From: an uncultured Candidatus Cenarchaeum sp.
Lineage (GTDB): Archaea; Thermoproteota; Nitrososphaeria; Nitrososphaerales; Nitrosopumilaceae
Assembly: GCA_958295735.1 (NCBI GenBank)
Contig: OY282369.1
Coordinates: 1,224,161-1,288,160, forward strand
Reading direction: 5' to 3'
Length of the DNA: 64,000 bases
Positions 12,415 through 29,574 of this stretch are shown in pieces. Position 1 is the first letter of the stretch; the number at the start of each line of letters is the position of its first letter. The notes beneath the pieces are model-generated. The model saw only the letters and a list, made by a program, of their open reading frames with translations, had not been told where the DNA came from and ran no database searches. Both the position numbers and the translations under genes were made by a program.

Positions 12415-14382
12415 ATGGCCGCCGCGGACGTGACCGCCGCGGACGTGACCGCCGCGGACGTGACCGCCGTGGACGTCACCCCCGACCGGAGCCTGTTCAA
12501 GAAGATCGGCCTGGCGGGATACAGGACGGAGCAGGCGGTGGCCGAGCTCGTGGACAACTCCATCGATGCCAGGGTGCGGGGGCGGACGGCCCACATCGAC
12601 GTGGAACTGGACTTTGCGGACGGGGAGATAGAGGTGAGGGACGACTGCTCCGGCATGACCCTCGAAGGGCTGAGGAACGCCATGACCATCGCGGCGGGGG
12701 GCGGGAAGGGCGGCGAGAGCCTTGGAAAGTTCGGCATGGGCATGAAGAGCGCCTGCTCCGCCCTGGGGCGGCGCTTTTCGGTGACTACGGCGAGGGAGGG
12801 AGCCAAAAAGGAGCATGCGGTGGTGTACGACGAGGACGAATGGCTGGCCGGCGGGTCCAGGGAATGGAAGTTCGACGTGAGGTCGGCCGAGAAGAACAAG
12901 CCGCGGAGCGGGACCGTCGTGAAGGTGGAGATGCTCAGCGTGCCGCTGTACCCCAACCAGGCGACCAACTTCAGGAGGCGGTTCGGCATGAGGTACGGGC
13001 CGTACCTGGAGCGCGGGGAGGTCGCGCTGCGGGTCAACTCCCGCGGCTGCGCTCCCGCCGAGACGGAGCTGGACGGGGAGAGGAGCCCGTTCGAGATCGC
13101 GCTGGCGGACGGGAACAGGATCACCGGCTGGGTGGGGCTGCTCAAGCGGAGGTCCGTGAAGGGCGACTACGGGATCCACCTGTACAGGAGGGGCCGGCTC
13201 GTCAGGGCGTTCGAGAAGTTCGGGATTGGGAGTCACCCGTCCGCCGCCAAGACGGTGGGCGAGGCCCACCTGGACCACGTCCCCGTGAACTTCCACAAGA
13301 CGGGGTTCATAGAGGACTCTCCCGAATACGCGGAGGCCGAGGCCGCGTTCAGGAAAGACCCGGCGGTGGCCCGCGCGCTCAGGGAGTCCGCGCGGAGCGG
13401 GAAGGGAGGAGGGGCGGCCGAGATAGGGCGGTTCTTGGGCGGCCCCGCGGGCGGGGCGCGCATCGCCGCGCGCGTGAGCTCGGACGCGGCGGGGAGGATG
13501 CTCGGGGAGGCAGGGAGCTTCGTCGTGAAGGGGCTCCCCGGCAAGGCCGAGATGAGGTTCGTCTCGGGCGGGCCCGCACTGTACTCGGCGGAAAAGGACG
13601 GGGACACGCTGATGATCACGGTCAACCGCGACAGCCGCGCGTTCCAGACGGTGAAGAATCCCCTGTCCTTGATAGGCGTGATAAAGAGCGAGGCGGGGCT
13701 GGCCATGGAGGAACCAGGGAGGCACGAGAGGTTCTTGGAGGCCAGGAACAGGGCGTGGCTCGATCTGGCGCCCCGCGGCGCCGGACGTGATAGCGATCAT
13801 CTCCCGGGCGCCGCGGGGAGGAGGAGGGGCCCCGTGGCGCCGGACTATTCGCTGGACCAGAGGCTGATCGGGGTGCACGACCTGCTGGAGGAGAGGTTTC
13901 CCCACCCGTTCCAGTTCACCGGCCTGAGCACGCTGGCCCCGTTCCTGCACAATACCTACGCCGTGATGGTGTACAACGTGCAGACGGCCAGGGGCTCCGG
14001 GGCCGAGCTGCAGGAGATGGTGGCCGAGGGAATCGGCGGGGAGGAGGAGCCCGTGGTGCTGCACGAGCCGGGCCGCAGGGAGATGGCCACCGCCGTCAGC
14101 CTCACGCGGGGAAAGCCGATCGTGGTGATCCGGGAGCGCGCGGAAGAGCCGGTCACCACGTGGGCATCCCCCGAAAAGGCGTGGCTTGACTTGTTCTTCG
14201 AGGTGGAGGGCAGGGGCACCAGGGTCTACCGCGACGAGCTGGCTCCGATGCTGGCCGAACTGGTGGACGCGAACCACGTCGACTTGGGCAGGCTGGAGTC
14301 GCTGGCCAAGCGCAGGAGGCTGCTCGGCAAGGTGCGGGGCCACCTAGAGGCCGCGGGATGGCAGGACACGCCGCGCGCCTGA
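12415..14382 (+). CDS. Prokaryotic MORC-like GHKL ATPase, copy 1
   Basis: This 655-residue protein carries a GHKL ATPase with N-box AVAELVDNSIDARV (residues 41-54, Glu44 and Asn48), VRDDCSGM near 75 as the DxGxG-type motif, and the lid GKFGMGMKSA near 104. A transducer-like region follows with HLDHVPVNFHKTGFIEDS. This arrangement matches MutL/MORC-type ATPases of restriction and defence loci. The N-terminus is lengthened by four copies of a 15-bp repeat encoding A(A/V)DVT, which copy 2 lacks apart from one unit. Downstream is a decayed IS481-type transposase and then AAA_13-like copy 2 in the same direction. Copy 2 is nearly the same through most of its length, so the pair is a fairly recent duplication. 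Confidence 0.75.
   Translation: MAAADVTAADVTAADVTAVDVTPDRSLFKKIGLAGYRTEQAVAELVDNSIDARVRGRTAHIDVELDFADGEIEVRDDCSGMTLEGLRNAMTIAAGGGKGGESLGKFGMGMKSACSALGRRFSVTTAREGAKKEHAVVYDEDEWLAGGSREWKFDVRSAEKNKPRSGTVVKVEMLSVPLYPNQATNFRRRFGMRYGPYLERGEVALRVNSRGCAPAETELDGERSPFEIALADGNRITGWVGLLKRRSVKGDYGIHLYRRGRLVRAFEKFGIGSHPSAAKTVGEAHLDHVPVNFHKTGFIEDSPEYAEAEAAFRKDPAVARALRESARSGKGGGAAEIGRFLGGPAGGARIAARVSSDAAGRMLGEAGSFVVKGLPGKAEMRFVSGGPALYSAEKDGDTLMITVNRDSRAFQTVKNPLSLIGVIKSEAGLAMEEPGRHERFLEARNRAWLDLAPRGAGRDSDHLPGAAGRRRGPVAPDYSLDQRLIGVHDLLEERFPHPFQFTGLSTLAPFLHNTYAVMVYNVQTARGSGAELQEMVAEGIGGEEEPVVLHEPGRREMATAVSLTRGKPIVVIRERAEEPVTTWASPEKAWLDLFFEVEGRGTRVYRDELAPMLAELVDANHVDLGRLESLAKRRRLLGKVRGHLEAAGWQDTPRA
12421..12480 (+). 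repeat. 15-bp in-frame tandem repeat, four units
   Basis: Unit GCCGCGGACGTGACC; three exact copies and one variant. It encodes A-(A/V)-D-V-T at the MORC1 N-terminus. MORC2 retains only the last unit, so the array probably expanded after duplication. Confidence 0.9.
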
Positions 14383-14905: not shown

Positions 14906-15003
14906 GCTGGCCAGGATGCGAAGTGGTTGCGGGATCGCACACCGCCGCACACAAGGTCGTATACTTTTAAGGTGGCCAGATGCGCACCAACAAGACGCAA
15001 ACC

Positions 15004-17325
15004 ATGAAGAAGTTAAGGATCAAGTTAGAAAACTGCTACGGCATCCGTCGCCTTGATTGCGAGTTTGATCTGTCTGACTGCAGACATGTGGCAATCTACG
15101 CTTCAAACGGCACCATGAAGACATCGCTTGCGAAGACTTTCAAAGACGTCAGCAAAGGTGACGAATCGCAAGATCGGATATTTGACAGGCCCTCCATGCG
15201 CACGATAACGAAGGAAAACGACGAAGAGGTGCAACAAGACGGTGTTTTGGTAATTGAATCCCAGGCGAATACCGATGATATGCCTGCCGCATCGTCAGAA
15301 ATATTGGCGAATAAAGAACTGCGAGACGAATACAACGCGATCAGCATGAGCCTCAAGTCCGGCATAGATGGAATCATCAAGGACTTGTCAAAACTGTCAG
15401 GCCTTACAAAAACAAATACCGGCAACAGCATCTTGGAAGATTTTGGCGTGGGTGGCGGATACGAGAGCATTTTTGCAGTATTTCAAGAATATGTGGAGAC
15501 AACTCTCGATCCAAGCGATGACTTGTCAGATGTCAGGTATGCAGATGTGCTGGGCGAGAAGGTTTGGGCGGCGTTAGAGCAGGGCGGCGTTAAGCAGATG
15601 TTGCGCGCATATTTGCAAAAATACAACGAGTTGGTATCGAAATCACCGTACTTGAGCACTACGTTCGACCACAGTAAGGCACAGACGGTTAATCAAAAGC
15701 TTTCAACGACTGGTTTTTTCAAAGCCGAGCATTCTGTAAGCCTCAAGTCCAAAAACGAAAACAGTCGCAGAGAGATAATAAGCGAGGAAGCGTTTAAAAA
15801 ATTTGTTGCCGAAGAAGAGGATAGAATCGAGGCAAAGATGATTCCGGGTTGGAAACAAATCGATGATAAACTTTCCTTCAACATAGAGTTGCAAAGATTC
15901 CGCAGTCGTATGATCACAGACAGGGGCCGCCTATTGAATCTGCTGTTGAATGACCACAAGAGGTTACGCAAGCTCCTATGGTTTAGCTACTTTACGAAAA
16001 CTGACCAAACGCTACGAGATCTGCTTGACTCTTATAAGTTACAAAAAAATGTACATGATCGCCTTGTTAAAAAGGCAAATGAGGAGAAAACTGATTGGGA
16101 CGATGTGGTCAATGTGTTCAAAAAAAGGTTTTCCGTCCCGTTTAATGTGCTAGTTACAAACAGGCCGGGAGCTATCCTTGAAGGCGAGATTCCCACCCTG
16201 GAGTTTCGCTTTTGCGACGCCGGCCATAAAAAAACAATGATGATGGCGGAGTTGGACCTGACCGTGAGTGCCGGCGAATCCCGGGCGGTCTACATACTGA
16301 ATATGCTTTTCAAGATCATGAAGAAGATCAAAGAGAGGAAAGAAACCATCATTGTCTTGGACGATATCGTGGATTCGTTCGACTACGCAAACAAGTACGC
16401 AATAATCCAGTACTTGAAAGAAATCTCAGAAAATGAATTTTTTTACCTGATAATTCTTACCCACAACTTTGACTTTTTCAGGGCCGTGATGGATCGTCAC
16501 GTTGTCGAATACAAGAGATGTTATTATGTAAACAAGACCAACGGCAGAGTGAGCCTCAAAAACGCCCACGACATAAGAACTCTACTGCGCGATATTGTAC
16601 AACACGAGCGTTCTGGCATAGAAAGTGACAAAAGGTTCGTAGCGGCAATCACGTTCGCACGCAACATAGTAGAATACACAAGAGGCAAGGAATGCACAGA
16701 TTACAAAAGGTTGTCATCGTTGCTACACTGGCAACCCGACATGCCAAAGATCTTGGTTTGTGATATACAGGAGACGCTTTGCGACATAATACCGCAAATG
16801 AAGCCCAGACGGCGAGGTGATCTTCGACCTGTTTATGAGTTCATCATGGAAACAGCGCGCAGATGCACGGGATCAGCGAACGACCTACTGTACAACAAAA
16901 TCGTTCTTTCCATAGCGATCAGGATCCAAGTAGAGCGTTTTATTCTGTGCCAGCCGAACCTATGTCGCGATCCGCCATTTGACAGTACAAACACCCACTG
17001 CTTGATCAAACGCTGCAAGAAACTTCGGTTGCCAGAGCCTGTGATCGACATACTGGACGAGGTGGGGATCATGATACCTAGCATAATACACCTCAATGCC
17101 TTTATGTACGAGCCGATCGTCGACATAGATCATACACGCCTACGACGATTGTTCGGCAAAGTGTGTGAGCTGCCTGTAAGGGATCATACCCAGGAAGCGG
17201 CTTACTCCACAGCCGCGGTTGTGGGCTCCAAGGTTGCTGCCCCCGTTGGGTGTGTAGATTCGACTGATGCGCAACAGACCACCCTTGAGCCATTCCTTCC
17301 GAGGCTGCCAGCGATGAACTCATAG
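15004..17325 (+). CDS. ABC/AAA_13-like ATPase (RloC/PrrC-like fold), copy 2, low G+C
   Basis: The 773-residue paralogue of the gene at 8864-11113 shares IYASNGTMKTSLAKTF (P-loop with Met), VSAGESRAVY (signature), IIVLDDIVDSFD (Walker B), ILTHNFDFFR (H-loop) and HLNAFMYEPIVDID near the end. I chose the ATG at 15004 over 14980 because it aligns with copy 1 and suits the TATA-like ATACTTTTAAG at 14960-14970. Its base composition is far lower in G+C (under half by eye) than everything around it and its codons are A/T-ending, so it was probably acquired recently from a different source. The C-terminal 45 residues have no counterpart in copy 1. Probable phage-defence ATPase with unknown effector. 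Confidence 0.7.
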   Translation: MKKLRIKLENCYGIRRLDCEFDLSDCRHVAIYASNGTMKTSLAKTFKDVSKGDESQDRIFDRPSMRTITKENDEEVQQDGVLVIESQANTDDMPAASSEILANKELRDEYNAISMSLKSGIDGIIKDLSKLSGLTKTNTGNSILEDFGVGGGYESIFAVFQEYVETTLDPSDDLSDVRYADVLGEKVWAALEQGGVKQMLRAYLQKYNELVSKSPYLSTTFDHSKAQTVNQKLSTTGFFKAEHSVSLKSKNENSRREIISEEAFKKFVAEEEDRIEAKMIPGWKQIDDKLSFNIELQRFRSRMITDRGRLLNLLLNDHKRLRKLLWFSYFTKTDQTLRDLLDSYKLQKNVHDRLVKKANEEKTDWDDVVNVFKKRFSVPFNVLVTNRPGAILEGEIPTLEFRFCDAGHKKTMMMAELDLTVSAGESRAVYILNMLFKIMKKIKERKETIIVLDDIVDSFDYANKYAIIQYLKEISENEFFYLIILTHNFDFFRAVMDRHVVEYKRCYYVNKTNGRVSLKNAHDIRTLLRDIVQHERSGIESDKRFVAAITFARNIVEYTRGKECTDYKRLSSLLHWQPDMPKILVCDIQETLCDIIPQMKPRRRGDLRPVYEFIMETARRCTGSANDLLYNKIVLSIAIRIQVERFILCQPNLCRDPPFDSTNTHCLIKRCKKLRLPEPVIDILDEVGIMIPSIIHLNAFMYEPIVDIDHTRLRRLFGKVCELPVRDHTQEAAYSTAAVVGSKVAAPVGCVDSTDAQQTTLEPFLPRLPAMNS

Positions 17326-17596: not shown

Positions 17597-18988
17597 TCAG
17601 GCTCCTGGCATGCGCCTGTGGCCGACGGCGACGCTTCCCAGCGTCTCGGTCAGGTCCAGCTCGAATTCCCGCGAGACGTCCGGGTGCCCCCCCGTGGCAT
17701 GCGCGGCCTCGTGCAGGAGGGTGCCCGCGTACCGCGCGAGGCCGCCCAGCTGGTCCCGCTTTACGATGATCCGGGACTCGGACTCTTCCCACAGGCCCAC
17801 GGGCTCGAACCCCGACATCTCCGGCCGCATCGTCTCCGAGACCAGCACCTCGCGGACGTTCGGGGGGCGGCCCCCGATCAGGCCGAATATGGCGTCGGTC
17901 ATGGAATACACCTCGGCCTCGGGCGGCGACAGGCGCGACGGGTCGACGAACTCAAAGCTGAAGCTGGAGGCGGTCTCCCGCGCGTACTGGTGGATGTCGC
18001 GGACGGCGCCCCCGCCGACGTCGGTCGTGCCCCCTATCTTCCCCGCCACGGTGCCCTGCACGGGCACGATTGCGATTCCCTCGCGCTTGGCCATGTCTAT
18101 GGCCGAGGTGTTCTGGTGGATCTGGTCGTGGGTCACGAACATCACGTTGGACCTGGCGCTCAGTATGCTGCACGCGTGGGCCGCCACGTCCGCGTATTCC
18201 AGCTCGTCGTGGGCCCTCCCCTCGGAGCGCAGCAGGTAGTCGTCCGCCAGGAGGTTCCCGACCTCGCCGCCGGACACGGCCAGCGCCATCTCCTTTACCC
18301 TTGCGGCGTACGCCGTCCTGCCGACGTTGGATCTCTCCCTGTTCAGCGCCTTGCGTATGGCCGCGTTGACGGACGTTATGTTGTACGAGAAGAGGAAGTT
18401 GGGCTCGTCCGCCACCTTGACTCCCTTTACGTATATCCTCGCGCCGCCCCGGCGCTCCAGTATCTGCCCGTGCGGCGTCTCCGCCAGAACGCGCTCTCCG
18501 GAAAACCTGTGGAACAGGCCCTTGGCGGCGCCCACGTCCTCCGCGGTGCACCCGTCTAGCGTGACCTCGGTTCCCACCATGGAGGGGTCCGACGGGTCGC
18601 TTATCACGGCATGAAGCGTGGCGATGTCGCCGAACCCGTGCTTGGCGGCCTTCGAGACGGCGAAGTCGCCGTGCCTGGAGCGCAGGCGCACCCCCACGCC
18701 GTGCCTGTGGAACGTGGCCAGCGCGTCCTTCAGCCCCACGCCGAACTTGCCGATGCAGACGTCCGTGCGGGACAGTTTTTCCTCGTTCTCGTTCTGCGTG
18801 AGGTGCCTGTGCGTCAGCCCCCTGCCGAAGTCGCGTATCACGAAACGCGTTGGGCCCCCGGTTATCTCGATGTCCGCGGTACCCGTAAGCGCGCGCTCGT
18901 CCAGCGCGTTGGCTATGACCTCCCGGATGGCGTGGCTGACGTCCCAGTCCTCCAGCATTTTCTCTATGTTGAGATCGAACTCCCGCAC
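17597..18988 (-). CDS. GHKL ATPase fused to HExxH metallopeptidase-like domain
   Basis: This 463-residue protein has an N-terminal GHKL module: EVIANALDERALTGT (residues 23-37, catalytic Glu and Asn), IRDFGRGLT near 51 and GKFGVGLKDAL near 80. The C-terminal part contains LLHEAAHATGG near residue 424, a zincin HExxH motif, followed 16 residues after its second His by Glu in DLTETLG, a possible third zinc ligand. The GTG start is supported by TATA-like TTATAAG at 19011-19017. ATP-dependent conformational control of a protease would suit an abortive-infection or signalling role, but that is inference. It is transcribed alone, convergent with AAA_13-like copy 2. Confidence 0.65.
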   Translation of the reverse strand: MREFDLNIEKMLEDWDVSHAIREVIANALDERALTGTADIEITGGPTRFVIRDFGRGLTHRHLTQNENEEKLSRTDVCIGKFGVGLKDALATFHRHGVGVRLRSRHGDFAVSKAAKHGFGDIATLHAVISDPSDPSMVGTEVTLDGCTAEDVGAAKGLFHRFSGERVLAETPHGQILERRGGARIYVKGVKVADEPNFLFSYNITSVNAAIRKALNRERSNVGRTAYAARVKEMALAVSGGEVGNLLADDYLLRSEGRAHDELEYADVAAHACSILSARSNVMFVTHDQIHQNTSAIDMAKREGIAIVPVQGTVAGKIGGTTDVGGGAVRDIHQYARETASSFSFEFVDPSRLSPPEAEVYSMTDAIFGLIGGRPPNVREVLVSETMRPEMSGFEPVGLWEESESRIIVKRDQLGGLARYAGTLLHEAAHATGGHPDVSREFELDLTETLGSVAVGHRRMPGA

Positions 18989-20937: not shown

Positions 20938-21387
20938 GCCGGGCCGCCGGATCCGTCGGTCCCGACGGGCGGAACGCGTCCCCCGCACGGCCCGCGGGCG
21001 GGCCGCGGGCGGCATTGCGGTGCGATGCGCCGACGAACCCGGGCAACCCGCGCTGCAGCTCCCCGCGGAGCCGGTCCGCCCGCCGCCGGCCTGCGGGCGG
21101 CTGATGCGGGCCGGCACGCGCCGCATGCCCGGCCTGGCCAGCTCCCCGAATTCCGTCTCGCCACTCCCCTCGGACTCCGGCCCGTTGGGGGTAATGGGCG
21201 ATTGACCATCTTGTCGACGTAAGATCACACAACAGGGCAAATCACCCGCGCGCGACACTAGCATGCCGAACTCGACCGAGCGGAAGATGGCCGCACCCCG
21301 GAGCGAGAACAATCTACCAAAAGCGAGGCCGAAGGGCGGGGAAGCGTTCTGGACGTCGCCCGCCACCGCGGGCGTGCCGGAACCGCC
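20938..21387. other. Gap between IS element and HNH gene
   Basis: About 450 bp. A 143-codon minus-strand frame crosses the IS right end and has no recognised motif. I see no supportable gene. Confidence 0.4.
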
Positions 21388-22701
21388 TCAAAAAGCGCGA
21401 TCATTTTTTGGTATAAAGTACGCGTGCGTGTCGCGGTCGTACGCCAGCGCTCCTGATTTCATCAGGCGCGGAACCACTTTAGAAATCGACGCCTCGACTT
21501 TCATGTGAGCAGACTGGTTGGGCAGCACGTCCAAATTTCCAAGATCGTTGTTGGTCTTGTCATGGTCTATGTGGTGCACTTGTTCATTCCGATCCAGCGG
21601 GCGTCCGATCTTTTCCGCCGCCAGCAGGCGGTGCTCAAGAGTGCGTTCTCCTCCAGGATAGACATGCTTGTACCCGTTAGCAAAAGTCATGCCCTTGAGG
21701 TTCTTGCGCGGCCTCCCCACATTTGTGGCGGCCCAGCACACCGAAGCCTTGCTCCTATAAGGAAACAGTTTGTATAACTCGGCCAGCTTCAGGTGCTTGT
21801 TGCTTCTCACCACGTCGAGTTCTTCTTCCGTCCACGGTTTCTTTTCTTGTAGGTTTGGCATGCCCAGCTTACGCCTCTTCGACCTCACTGCGCCGGGAGT
21901 TTTTCCCATCTGTGCGGCCATGGTTGTTGCACGCATGTACGGGTTGTCCTTCATGAACGTCACCTGATCGTCCGTCCAGCTGAGTTCTGAGCACGTCTTG
22001 GAGAGCCCGAGATGCCTCTGCCGAATGTGTACAGATGCGGTAGTCCGGCCCATCCTGCCTGCGATGTCCTTGGCACGCATCTTTGGGGTCCACTCCGCAA
22101 CACGCGCATCGTCGGCAGTCGACCACGGAATGTGCTTGGTTTTTCTCGACAGCCCGAGCTCGCGGCGTTTGGATTGTGCCGCATAAAGCGTCTTGCCGAG
22201 TTTTTTGGCCACGTCGTTGGCGGGCATGTCCGGGTTGTCCTTTACAAACCGAGTCTGTGCTTCCGTCCAGAGATTACTGCGGAAGTTCGGCATGCCAAGC
22301 ATCCTGCGGTGGCCTCGAACGGCATCCGCGGTCCGTTTAAGTTCGGCGGCCGCCACGGATGCCTCCATGTCGGGGTTGTCCCGGAGGAATTGTTCCTCTT
22401 TCGGGGTCCACGCGCGTTTAGGCGTGTCGCGTCTGCGTCTGGCATCACCGACTGTTGCCTCGCTCCTGCCGATCGTTTTGGGCGCGTTGGCCGCGGCCGA
22501 TCTGGAGCGGTTCGTGGATGGTTCGGCGCGGTCTGCCGGCCGGCTTCCGGGTCCCGGCATCCCTAGTTCCGCTCTTCTCCAAAGCATCTCATGAAGTTCT
22601 CGCCCAAAAGCCGAAGCGGCCTTGCCGCAGGTAAGGCAGTGTTGGTTTTTAGCCTGCCGCCTCCGCCTTTTGTCCACGGCCTGCCGTCGTCCATCACACA
22701 C
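21388..22701 (-). CDS. HNH endonuclease with array of Myb/SANT-like repeats, copy 1
   Basis: The 437-residue protein starts at a GTG overlapping the stop of the upstream paralogue by 8 nt, so the two form a coupled operon. A putative short zinc motif (HCLTCGK) near residue 22 is followed by about five modules of 45-50 residues, each with a leading W(T/S) and an A..(L/M)G(K/R)T...R...LG(L/M) pattern, as in trihelical Myb/SANT-type DNA-binding units. The C-terminal domain contains EQVHHIDHDKTNNDLGNLD, an HNH/NUMOD-style nuclease core. HNH enzymes of this style are usually homing or phage-type endonucleases. The length of the DNA-binding array is unusual. G+C is lower than in neighbouring genes. 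Confidence 0.75.
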   Translation of the reverse strand: MCDGRRQAVDKRRRRQAKNQHCLTCGKAASAFGRELHEMLWRRAELGMPGPGSRPADRAEPSTNRSRSAAANAPKTIGRSEATVGDARRRRDTPKRAWTPKEEQFLRDNPDMEASVAAAELKRTADAVRGHRRMLGMPNFRSNLWTEAQTRFVKDNPDMPANDVAKKLGKTLYAAQSKRRELGLSRKTKHIPWSTADDARVAEWTPKMRAKDIAGRMGRTTASVHIRQRHLGLSKTCSELSWTDDQVTFMKDNPYMRATTMAAQMGKTPGAVRSKRRKLGMPNLQEKKPWTEEELDVVRSNKHLKLAELYKLFPYRSKASVCWAATNVGRPRKNLKGMTFANGYKHVYPGGERTLEHRLLAAEKIGRPLDRNEQVHHIDHDKTNNDLGNLDVLPNQSAHMKVEASISKVVPRLMKSGALAYDRDTHAYFIPKNDRAF

Positions 22702-23590
22702 CAGACTCGTACGTGTGGGTGTCAGGGTTGTACAGGAGATCTCCCGACTTGATCAGTCTCGGAAAAAGTTTGCGGAGCGATCCGTGGGCGTCGTTGTGTA
22801 CGCTTGAATCGTCCAGTACGTCCAGATTGCTCGGATCGTTGTCTAGCCTGTCAAAATTTATGTGGTGCACGACCTCTTTTGCGCCAAGCTTCCGGCCCAG
22901 CGTTCTTTCCATCACGATTCTGTGCTCAAGCGCGGATTTTCTGCCTTTGGATATAACCCTGTAGCCGTTGGTTATGCTGTGCCCCTTCCGCGTTGTGCGC
23001 TTCCTGCCGAGTTTCACGAGCATGCTGCGTATGGTGCCGTGGTTGTGCCTCGGAAGGAGGCTCGAAAGATCGCGCACGGGGTCCTGGACGTGTTTCGCCG
23101 CGATCTGGATCTCGTCGTCAGTCCATTCGACGCTTTCCACGTATTTGGGCAGGCCCATCTTGAGTCGCTTCATGCGTATGGCCGCAACGCCACGATCCAG
23201 ATGCTGCGCGAGCTCGCCGGGTTCCATGCCCGGGTGATCCCGCAGGAATTTGATCTCGTGCGGCTTCCAGCGGTTTTGGCGGCGGAGTCCTAGTTTGTGC
23301 AACCTGTGGCTTATGGAAGGGACGGTCCTGCCGAGTTCCTTTGCGAGATCTTTCGCATCCATGTCGGGATGCGCCGAGACAAAGTCGTCATCTTTCGCAG
23401 TCCATTCGTTCCTGGGCGGCATGCGCTTCGATCGGCCGAGGCCGAGTCGGTGGCGCATGTGCCTCACTCCGGATTTGGTCCTGTTGAGCTTTTCAGCAAT
23501 ATCGGCATCGGTCATCGCCGTGAGGTTCTTTTTCAGGAACTTTATTTCTCCGTCTGCCCACCCCGGTCGCTCGTAGTGCGCCACACCCAT
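22694..23590 (-). CDS. HNH endonuclease with array of Myb/SANT-like repeats, copy 2
   Basis: The ATG at 23590 (MGVAHYERPGW) gives 298 residues. The longer frame to 23653 begins inside the adjacent IS66-type element and cannot be native. Four Myb-like modules (for example EWTAKDDDFVSAHPDM followed by ELGRTVPSISHRLHKLGL) precede an HNH core KEVVHHINFDRLDNDPSNLD. The C-terminus resembles copy 1 through RLIKSGDLLYNPDTHTY. It is the first gene of the two-gene operon. The IS66-type insertion lies 57 bp upstream of the start and may have cut the native promoter. Confidence 0.72.
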   Translation of the reverse strand: MGVAHYERPGWADGEIKFLKKNLTAMTDADIAEKLNRTKSGVRHMRHRLGLGRSKRMPPRNEWTAKDDDFVSAHPDMDAKDLAKELGRTVPSISHRLHKLGLRRQNRWKPHEIKFLRDHPGMEPGELAQHLDRGVAAIRMKRLKMGLPKYVESVEWTDDEIQIAAKHVQDPVRDLSSLLPRHNHGTIRSMLVKLGRKRTTRKGHSITNGYRVISKGRKSALEHRIVMERTLGRKLGAKEVVHHINFDRLDNDPSNLDVLDDSSVHNDAHGSLRKLFPRLIKSGDLLYNPDTHTYESGV

Positions 23591-23923
23591 CGCCGTCCCG
23601 CCGCGCGGAGCGCGAGGCCGCGATATTAGGGTTTGCCAGCAGTCTATGTACACACTTACCTCCCCCCCCCCCTCCCGGCGCCCCCCGCGCGCCCGGGCTG
23701 CCCCGATCGGCGCGCGCCGCGCGATCGCGGCCGGAGCGGGGATCTTTCGGCGGGCGGGCGCCGCCCCCCGCGCGCCCGGGCTGCCCCGATCGGCGCGCGC
23801 CGCGCGATCGCGGCAGGGTTCGGGGCATTTTCGGCGCGCGGCCGCCCCGGTACGGCGCTCCGTCCCGATGCCTGACGCGGGCTGACGCCGCCCGCGCGCG
23901 CCCGGCAGATCCGCTGGGGCCGG

Positions 23924-24941
23924 TCAGGCGGACGCCGCTGCCGGAGCCGGCGCCCGCCCCGCCGCGGAGCCGGGCGGGCGCACCAGCCCGGATGCGGGGT
24001 CATCGAAGACGCACCAGTCGGGCCCGGCCCACGGGCCGGGGTCGAACATTTTCCAGTCGCGATTGCGGGCGATCTCGGTGAAGGCCCTGCCCGGGAACAT
24101 GCCGTTCATGCGGGCGGTGCCCCCGATCGTGACCAGCTCGGAGAACGTCTTGCGCCCCTCCGGCGTGGAGATCTTGTGGTGCGCGTTGCGCTGCGTCACT
24201 ATGAGGTCGCGTATGGCGAGCTCGGCGGGGTTGTTGTGGGGCGGCATGCCGCGGAATCCCATGAACGTGAGCACGTGCGGCTCGGCGTTGGCGAGGTGCG
24301 TCTTCAGCTTGCCGTCGGGGTACGCCGACACGGCGTCGTGGAACTCCTTGGCCAGGTACGTCACGGTGAACGGCGCCAGCGTCTTGATGCCGTGTATCTT
24401 GTGGTAGTACCCCTGCATCCAGTCGTGCCTCGCCTCGTCCCCCGGGTCGCCGTCCACGGCGACGGCCTCGCCCTTGGCGAGCAGGTGCCTGCAGCATCTC
24501 TGCAGATGCTGGAACCACGCGCGGTACGCCGGCAGCCCGTCGGCCACCACCGCCCTGCGGGACAGCCAGCCGAAGTGCTCCCTCAGGACCGCCGCCCCCC
24601 GGGTGGGCGCGAAGTGCACCCACACGGCGTTGCCCACGACGGCCACCCAGACGTAGCCGGTCTTGCCCAGCACGCCGATCTTGAACCCGGTCTCGTCCAT
24701 GTGCACGAACATGCTCTCGCTGAACGCCCACTTGATCTCCTCCAGCTGCTTCTTCGACGCGCCCGCCATGGCCCTCCGGGCCTTCGCCACGGCCGCCTCC
24801 GAGATGCGGAAGTAGAACGTGGACTCGATAAAGCCGGCGATCCTCGCGTCCGTGCAGCCCATCTCGAACAGCGCCATTATGAGGCCGAGCGCCCTCGGGC
24901 CGCACGAGGTGCCCTTCGGAAACGGCGCCTGGGCCTCGTAG
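23924..24941 (-). pseudogene. IS66-type transposase, C-terminal part (split by IS630)
   Basis: This is the C-terminal two-thirds of the element A transposase. It has the DDE motifs MDETGFKIGVLG, VADGLPAYRAW with QRCCRHLLA, and HNNPAELAIRD. Its reading continues upstream as YYEAQAPFPKG and joins the N-terminal part across the IS630 insertion, where removing the insert and one TA restores EKYYEAQ in frame. The homologous stretch in the second copy reads GKHSEAWAPFPKG. Confidence 0.9.
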
Positions 24942-28128: not shown

Positions 28129-29574
28129 CTACCGCGCGCGCCTGGCCCCTGGCCTGCGGTCGGCGCACCGCCCGCACAGCATCCTCTTGAAAAGCAGGAG
28201 GCGGCGGACCCAAAAGGCGCAGTTCCCGCATATCGTCTTCTTGCAGTCACCGCAGCGGTGGCTGTGCGAGCCGAAAAGCCTCGGGGCGTGCGCCATGGCG
28301 CCGCACGAGTTGCACAGCAGGCACGCCTCTCCCGCGTGCCTGCCGCAGACCCCGCACTCGTACAGATCCGAATCGGTGATCCTGGCCCCGTCGCCGTTCT
28401 GGACGAGCGAGCACCTGTACCGCTTTTTCAGGAACCCCAGCCGCATCACGTACTTGGGCATCCGCACCTGCCTGATGTCCGTGATGTGGACGCTCCTGGG
28501 CCCGATCCGGCAGTCCTTCCTGTACGACACCCTGTTTCGCCCGGTGTACCGGACCGTTGAGGAGTACTTCCGGATCAGCCGCTCCGCGACGATCCGCTTG
28601 AGCGACGGCCCGCCCAGCGCAAAGTCCTCCTTGTATACGGGGCACGGGACGGCCGGGATCCGCGGCGGCCCGCCCAGCCGCGCGCCCTCCAGCAGGAACG
28701 ACGCCCGCGCGCGATCCGTCCGGGAGCCGTCCCTTGCGCTGTATACGCCGCGTATGCCGTGCTCGTGGACCGAGCGTATCCGTCCCGCGCCGGTGGTAAA
28801 ATCCTGGTCGACGTTTGCCGTGACCACGTAGTAGGCCTCCAGCCTGAGGCTGGCCAGGGTCGTCTCCAGCAGTTCGGCCGCGGATGCGGGGTGGCTTTTG
28901 ACGGGGGCCAGGATCCCCGAAAGCATGGCCCGGAGCCCGGCCATGTCGGTTGCCGGAAGGTCATGGATGACTGAATCCCCGCTCCCGGTCACGAGCCTGA
29001 TTCCTGCCGCTTGCGCCTGATCCGCCAGCCAGTTCAGGTCCCGCAGCTTGATGGACACCCCCCCAGGAAGCTGCCTGACGCATTCCTCCGCCTTCGCAGT
29101 GTACCTTCCCGTAGTGATCACCATCCCCTTGGTCGCCCTCTCACTCACCACCGCGGAGTGGAGTTTTTGCACTATGGGCCTCCCTATGGACTTGTTCCGC
29201 CAGTACTTGCACTCTACCACGATCTTCCCGCCCCGCCCGTGTATGATCAGGTCCCGGCCGCCGTCGGCCACGCCGCCTATCTGCTCTACCCTGCACATCC
29301 AAGATTTTCTGAGTATCCTCCCGCATAGCTGCTCAAATTCACGCCATCCAAGGACGTCAAGATGCACCGTTTCCATGCGCGCCGCCGTGGCGCGGACTAC
29401 GCGTCCCGGCGGCCCGCGAGGCGGCCCGCGAGGCGGCCCGCGAGGCGGCCCGCGAGGCGGCCCGCGAGGCGGCCCGCGGCATCTCGGGCAGGACTTTGCG
29501 GCCGCGCTGTTGCGGCGCCCGCAGCGGGGGCACGGAATCCCCGGCCGGCCGGCCGGGTTCGGGCGCCTGTTCAT
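28129..29574 (-). CDS. Mrr-type restriction endonuclease with zinc ribbons and PPRG linker
   Basis: The 481-residue protein begins with a zinc ribbon (CPRCGRRNSAAAKSCPRC, residues 15-32), then a (PPRG)n linker of about six units. The Mrr-cat nuclease domain follows: GWREFEQLCGRIL, VADGGRDLIIHG and KIVVECKYWRNK, giving the D-x(n)-ExK PD-(D/E)xK site, plus MVITTGRYTAKA. A long middle region of unknown fold follows, then a second Cys/His cluster (YECGVCGRHAGEACLLCNSC and CGDCKKTICGNC) close to the C-terminus. Mrr-type enzymes cut modified foreign DNA; the terminal zinc modules may read the DNA or partner. The ATG start is 23 bp after TATA-like TTTAATTATT (29598-29607). Confidence 0.82.
   Translation of the reverse strand: MNRRPNPAGRPGIPCPRCGRRNSAAAKSCPRCRGPPRGPPRGPPRGPPRGPPRGPPGRVVRATAARMETVHLDVLGWREFEQLCGRILRKSWMCRVEQIGGVADGGRDLIIHGRGGKIVVECKYWRNKSIGRPIVQKLHSAVVSERATKGMVITTGRYTAKAEECVRQLPGGVSIKLRDLNWLADQAQAAGIRLVTGSGDSVIHDLPATDMAGLRAMLSGILAPVKSHPASAAELLETTLASLRLEAYYVVTANVDQDFTTGAGRIRSVHEHGIRGVYSARDGSRTDRARASFLLEGARLGGPPRIPAVPCPVYKEDFALGGPSLKRIVAERLIRKYSSTVRYTGRNRVSYRKDCRIGPRSVHITDIRQVRMPKYVMRLGFLKKRYRCSLVQNGDGARITDSDLYECGVCGRHAGEACLLCNSCGAMAHAPRLFGSHSHRCGDCKKTICGNCAFWVRRLLLFKRMLCGRCADRRPGARRAR
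29409..29480 (-). repeat. 12-bp in-frame tandem repeat, six units
   Basis: The unit GCGGCCCGCGAG is repeated with one variant end unit. On the minus strand it encodes the PPRG linker between the zinc ribbon and nuclease domain of the Mrr protein. Copy-number change would alter linker length without shifting the frame. Confidence 0.9.

Follow-up and report, generated by a model that had tools for sequence, protein, structure and literature searches.

The HNH homing enzymes MobA, MobE and I-HmuI nick one strand of DNA, and the DNA-binding parts of phage homing enzymes have been described as beads-on-a-string (PMC2988022), so that modularity as such is already known. The enzyme I-PfoP3I, with a C-terminal HNH motif and a presumed DNA-binding N-terminus, nicks a 14-bp site (PMC3428280). 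An HNH homing element hidden in a phage methylase, the ShiLan element, has also been reported, its homing having been inferred from its distribution (PMC11855218).

Here we compare these systems with two neighboring genes, A and B, in a 64,000-nucleotide window (the whole stretch of DNA analyzed) of an archaeal genome. On the minus strand B comes first and A follows, each with its module array N-terminal to an HNH_3 domain. As the initial annotation had claimed, both open reading frames encode HNH nucleases preceded by four to five Myb-like modules each; B has four and A has five.

22694 to 23590, minus strand: gene B, open reading frame with an ATG start, 298 amino acids, four modules and an HNH_3 core
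21388 to 22701, minus strand: gene A, open reading frame with a GTG candidate start, 437 amino acids, five modules and an HNH_3 core
22694 to 22701, minus strand: 8-nt overlap between the B stop and the candidate start (GTG) of A, as read from the sequence with an uncertain start codon
22417 to 22701, minus strand: N-terminal 95 residues of A, doubtfully coding, with possible decayed modules (codon-position GC, module HMM, pLDDT)
22703 to 22990, minus strand: HNH nuclease core of B, with VHHIN, N251, N255 and H265 intact (conserved columns of a 12-sequence alignment; Pfam HNH_3)
21412 to 21699, minus strand: HNH nuclease core of A, catalytic residues intact (Pfam HNH_3; alignment)

The HNH_3 family (PF13392) scored 34.2 bits in A and 31.9 bits in B against a Pfam cut-off of 24.8, and residues H242, H243, N251, N255 and H265 of B are conserved in the alignment of twelve relatives; H377 is a conserved HNH histidine of A. 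The proposed 8-nt overlap of the two genes is plausible and depends on the start at GTG 22701, because the next ATGs in A, at residues 39 and 48, would both leave a gap instead. Residues 1-95 of A look poorly coding, with a flat codon-position GC (0.63/0.64/0.62), and residues 53-94 have a pLDDT below 50 in the AlphaFold model. This stretch also contains one or two possible decayed module ends (7.6 and 1.0 bits), which lie near the level of shuffled sequences; additional, degenerate modules at the A N-terminus could not be clearly separated from chance.

Nine complete modules of about 41 residues, all trihelical, were delimited in the two proteins. Scores are those of the module HMM, followed where given by those of an HMM built from phage and plasmid modules only (phage-only).

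23438 to 23563, minus strand: module B1 (residues 10-51), 62.4 bits, phage-only 28 bits, helices 13-21, 28-34, 39-48
23285 to 23407, minus strand: module B2 (residues 62-102), 68.0 bits, phage-only 26.1 bits, helices 65-73, 79-86, 90-99
23150 to 23272, minus strand: module B3 (residues 107-147), 66.3 bits, phage-only 12.5 bits, helices 110-118, 124-131, 135-144
23003 to 23128, minus strand: module B4 (residues 155-196), divergent type with one extra residue, 58.5 bits, phage-only 0.2 bits, helices 158-166, 172-178, 184-193
22291 to 22413, minus strand: module A1 (residues 97-137), 65.4 bits, helices 100-108, 114-121, 125-134
22150 to 22272, minus strand: module A2 (residues 144-184, with the module HMM match at 145-184), 65.9 bits, helices 147-155, 161-168, 172-181
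22003 to 22128, minus strand: module A3 (residues 192-233), 61.1 bits, phage-only 26.8 bits, helices 195-204, 210-217, 221-230
21859 to 21981, minus strand: module A4 (residues 241-281), 70.8 bits, helices 244-252, 258-265, 269-278
21712 to 21837, minus strand: module A5 (residues 289-330), divergent type like B4, 55.7 bits, phage-only 1.2 bits, helices 292-300, 306-312, 318-327

The module scores of 56-71 bits in A and 58-68 bits in B were obtained with an HMM trained on these same modules, and the phage-only HMM served as an independent check. The latter placed all nine modules in register, seven of them at 6.9-28 bits, whereas 1000 shuffles of the A/B sequences gave at most 4.5 bits; the last module of each protein (B4 and A5) was weak. 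Besides, the arrays matched PHROG 323, the D5-like regulators, with E=5.7e-39 for A and E=1.9e-35 for B. AlphaFold modeling, one of the checks proposed with the initial annotation, predicted three helices in every module, with a mean pLDDT of 83 for B and 75 for A and an arrangement between modules that is not fixed in the models (pTM 0.37 and 0.32).

Compared with known structures, the family profile matched v-Myb R2R3 (E=3.8e-6), the CRISPR-repeat-binding protein 2lvs (2.6e-4) and B-Myb (0.009). Foldseek returned no PDB match under E 0.001, and its best match, the Reb1-Ter complex at E 0.03, is suggestive at most. In the Pfam search, the Myb_DNA-binding family (PF00249) remained below the cut-off and was not listed for A and B, reaching a sub-threshold 18.2 bits in gp103 of Mycobacterium phage Thibault, and no NUMOD DNA-binding domain was listed for A or B up to E=10. 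Accordingly, "Myb-like" is a fair description of the modules and "Myb family by Pfam" is not. Helix 3 carries a net positive charge of +3 to +6 in every module, with variable outward positions and fixed core positions. Sequence and models together indicate that the modules probably bind DNA, and the DNA-reading role initially ascribed to the arrays finds support in the trihelical fold, the Myb profile match and the fusion of the same array type to another nuclease in Acinetobacter phage ME3.

The comparison of the modules with each other did not sustain the further idea of a natural programmable nuclease. They are 12-51% identical and differ throughout, unlike TALE repeats, which are near-identical and differ at specificity positions, and because the differences are spread all over, a one-module-one-code scheme is not apparent. 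The most similar are modules 1, 2 and 4 of A (41-51%), and the module tree is almost unresolved, pairing only A2 with A4 (94/70); this identity and this pairing suggest that the array of A grew by internal duplication. In the tree of HNH domains A and B are sisters (support 97/77, moderate and not decisive), and the best reading of their sequences is a duplication in place. Both fall outside the clade of two-module proteins, so the shared module-HNH layout could have arisen twice.

More than two modules combined with an HNH domain were found only in A and B and in none of about 190 other HNH-containing frames, in a census that was seeded from A/B and HNH motifs and is not exhaustive. Modules were lacking in 162 frames, seven had one, fifteen had two before the core, and six had them only behind the core; proteins of the first and last kinds were set aside. 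A viral scan with A alone gave HNH matches only. The two-module group comprises Thibault gp103 and its relatives, viral contigs (L055-L068, L260-L271) and a Rhodocyclaceae sequence (L134). Homologues with a fixed two-module layout, which the initial annotation had set against its own reading if the rest proved degenerate, therefore do exist; the extra modules of A and B are not degenerate.

In all three translated cases (L054, L055, L134) the two-module HNH gene sits within a C5-methylase gene but in another reading frame, directly 3' of the AQxFGVxQRRRR motif, and the methylase frame stays open across it. This is the same kind of hiding place as that of the ShiLan element, whose HNH protein, unlike the Thibault-type and A/B proteins with their modules, has two zinc fingers according to its authors (PMC11855218). 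We also considered whether the ShiLan and Thibault-type HNH proteins are the same and rejected it, as phage ShiLan is absent among the 60 matches listed of the Thibault gp103 search. What looks like a further ShiLan-like element, encoding a different HNH protein, occurs in the Rhodocyclaceae MAG, viral contigs and mycobacteriophages (L134:1106-3277; around 2900-3600 in L055 and L054). For phage Schatzie, the annotators recorded an intron whose bounds they could not set.

The gene pair is bordered on both sides by transposon sequences.

23648 to 23923, minus strand: terminal part of an IS66-family element, lying 58 nt upstream of the B ATG; the genome has about 22 copies that are near-identical (96-100%)
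23924 to 24877: IS66 transposase (Pfam match)
21182 to 21385, plus strand: transposase element truncated to its left end (the end and the first transposase codons), cut at the A stop codon, 73-76% to genome copies that run on as a full gene

The IS66-family end carries an internal duplication of about 88 bp, and the insertion may have cut off the promoter of B. The possibility that the operon had inserted within the downstream truncated transposase gene was discarded because the other half of that gene was not found on the far side, and the insertion thus cannot be read as a homing event. Rfam detected no group I or group II intron between positions 14000 and 34000, where the flanks are insertion sequences; such an intron around A and B was rejected, with no Rfam match in the phage relatives either. 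Nor was a concealed host gene like that of the methylase elements seen at A/B, where the alternative frames on the same strand are short.

Several genes with possible defense functions occur in the same window. An AAA ATPase (14980-17325; GC3 0.56) matches the PADLOC candidate PDC-S46 with 669 bits and is apparently foreign, probably a recently acquired single-gene defense system. Two HATPase proteins (HSP90/MORC-like) are encoded at 12415-14382, with a weak MzaB match, and at 17597-18988. Near IS66 elements, an Mrr-type restriction endonuclease with CxxC motifs (28129-29574) is type IV restriction-like by PADLOC.

The host encodes an archaeal AmoA (E=1.7e-118) and is thus an ammonia-oxidizing archaeon, probably a Cenarchaeum-like member of the Nitrosopumilaceae of the sponge-symbiont type. 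Its genome, a single contig of 3.17 Mb compared with 0.8-2.2 Mb in the family members searched, exceeds those of its relatives in size and has a heavy load of insertion sequences. The GC3 of the pair (0.66 and 0.71) contrasts with 0.90-0.96 in five neighboring genes. No A/B relatives were detected in 60 related genomes, nor HNH proteins with arrays in 398 genomes of the phylum, and the pair is single-copy in its own genome. With one carrier genome, absence from the 60 relatives and a foreign GC3, the pair has the mobile, patchy distribution of homing endonucleases, and these features point to horizontal acquisition, most likely from a virus or other mobile element. Small two- and three-module array proteins without nuclease are encoded in other archaea of the same phylum (L246:1495-1848, L247:1429-2271).

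We consider, with moderate confidence, that A and B are horizontally acquired, site-specific HNH endonucleases of homing type with expanded arrays, duplicated in place. This homing-type character, already put forward in the initial annotation, is supported by the same-layout relatives inside methylase genes, the foreign codon usage and the patchy distribution. The N-terminal tandem of four or five modules would lie along the DNA and read a long asymmetric site, and the C-terminal HNH_3 core would cut at the site read, most likely by nicking, like other HNH homing enzymes. The genes would then spread through repair templated by the gene-carrying copy, the pair having presumably entered by horizontal transfer and duplicated before coming to lie among insertion sequences as at present. 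Cutting and homing by A and B are proposed by analogy with the relatives, since the pair does not itself lie within a host gene; a search for a target site, empty site, intron or intein for A/B found none.

The foreign gene pair could also be viewed as part of a mobile defense island, in which A and B would cleave incoming DNA at sites that the host lacks. The candidate defense ATPase, the two HATPase proteins and the Mrr-type endonuclease nearby fit this explanation, but we regard it as unlikely: PADLOC models give no match to A and just a weak mads_1 match over 26 residues to B, a methylase partner is absent beside the pair, and the closest relatives are phage genes within phage genes, that is, on the attacker side. 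Quite unlikely in our assessment is a regulatory or relict nature, by which the arrays would be D5-like transcription regulators with an inactive or incidental HNH core and the genes would be decaying among insertion sequences. The top PHROG match is indeed a transcription-regulator family, transposons adjoin both sides and the N-terminus of A looks poorly coding; against this, the nine modules are intact, as are both HNH active sites, and an HNH core is lacking in the D5-like array proteins examined.

The homing-type explanation has a special form, a two-subunit cutter, in which A and B would sit side by side on a composite site and each nick one strand, so that a staggered double-strand break would require both of them. 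The retention of the sister duplicates, with their two cores intact, in a single transcription unit, and the frequent nicking by HNH homing enzymes (PMC2988022, PMC3428280), would agree with such a cutter. Tandem duplication alone, however, explains the layout, and no second such pair was found; we hold this form to be rather improbable. The apparent sister-duplicate status of A and B fits a heteromeric cutter and two separate specificities alike. The most far-reaching version, an obligate pair of modular nickases making a staggered break at a composite site of at least 30 bp, with arrays that lengthen by module duplication and so gain new specificity, is a speculative proposal to which we give still less weight.

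Under the favored reading of homing-type nucleases, the growth from the usual one or two modules to four and five should enable each enzyme to single out a long DNA site. To our knowledge, homing enzymes with clearly countable and separable DNA-reading modules are uncommon. The occurrence of one, two, four or five module copies on an HNH core, and of the array on a Vsr-like core in a phage, offers a direct test of whether specificity grows with module number. The specialist interest is moderate and would rise if the pair cuts together or if module number sets site length. A small literature search found no earlier report of a homing system in an ammonia-oxidizing archaeon, to which A and B would add a possible one.

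Among the known systems, I-PfoP3I resembles A and B in its domain order, and the structure-search matches include an HNH protein of phage Pf-WMP3, the phage of I-PfoP3I, and weakly I-HmuI. Unlike A and B, I-PfoP3I and I-HmuI are encoded in group I introns, and a long module array is not described for them. The v-Myb/B-Myb R2R3 and Reb1 repeats are likewise tandem trihelical DNA readers, but they belong to eukaryotic regulators or fork barriers and carry no nuclease. Thibault gp103, Schatzie gp117 and their viral-contig relatives share with A and B the N-terminal Trp-led modules, the HNH_3 core and a common C-terminal extension, with about 30-32% identity to B over most of the length; they differ in having two modules, in being single genes inside a methylase gene and in forming a separate, well-supported HNH clade. 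Arrays without nuclease are common on phages and plasmids, and the D5-like regulators have the same kind of array as A and B but no nuclease core; there are three modules in the case of Listeria phage B025, and a protein of a Sphingobium plasmid has about six. The top match of the viral structure search, gp88 of Acinetobacter phage ME3 (L255:1186-2139, annotated simply as DNA mismatch endonuclease), carries four modules (two of them weak) before the nuclease, which is Vsr-like in contrast to the HNH of A and B. As the array is found alone, with HNH and with a Vsr-like nuclease, it looks like a portable aiming part. Overall, module arrays are not new as such, and what sets A and B apart from these systems is the length of their arrays, their pairing and their host.
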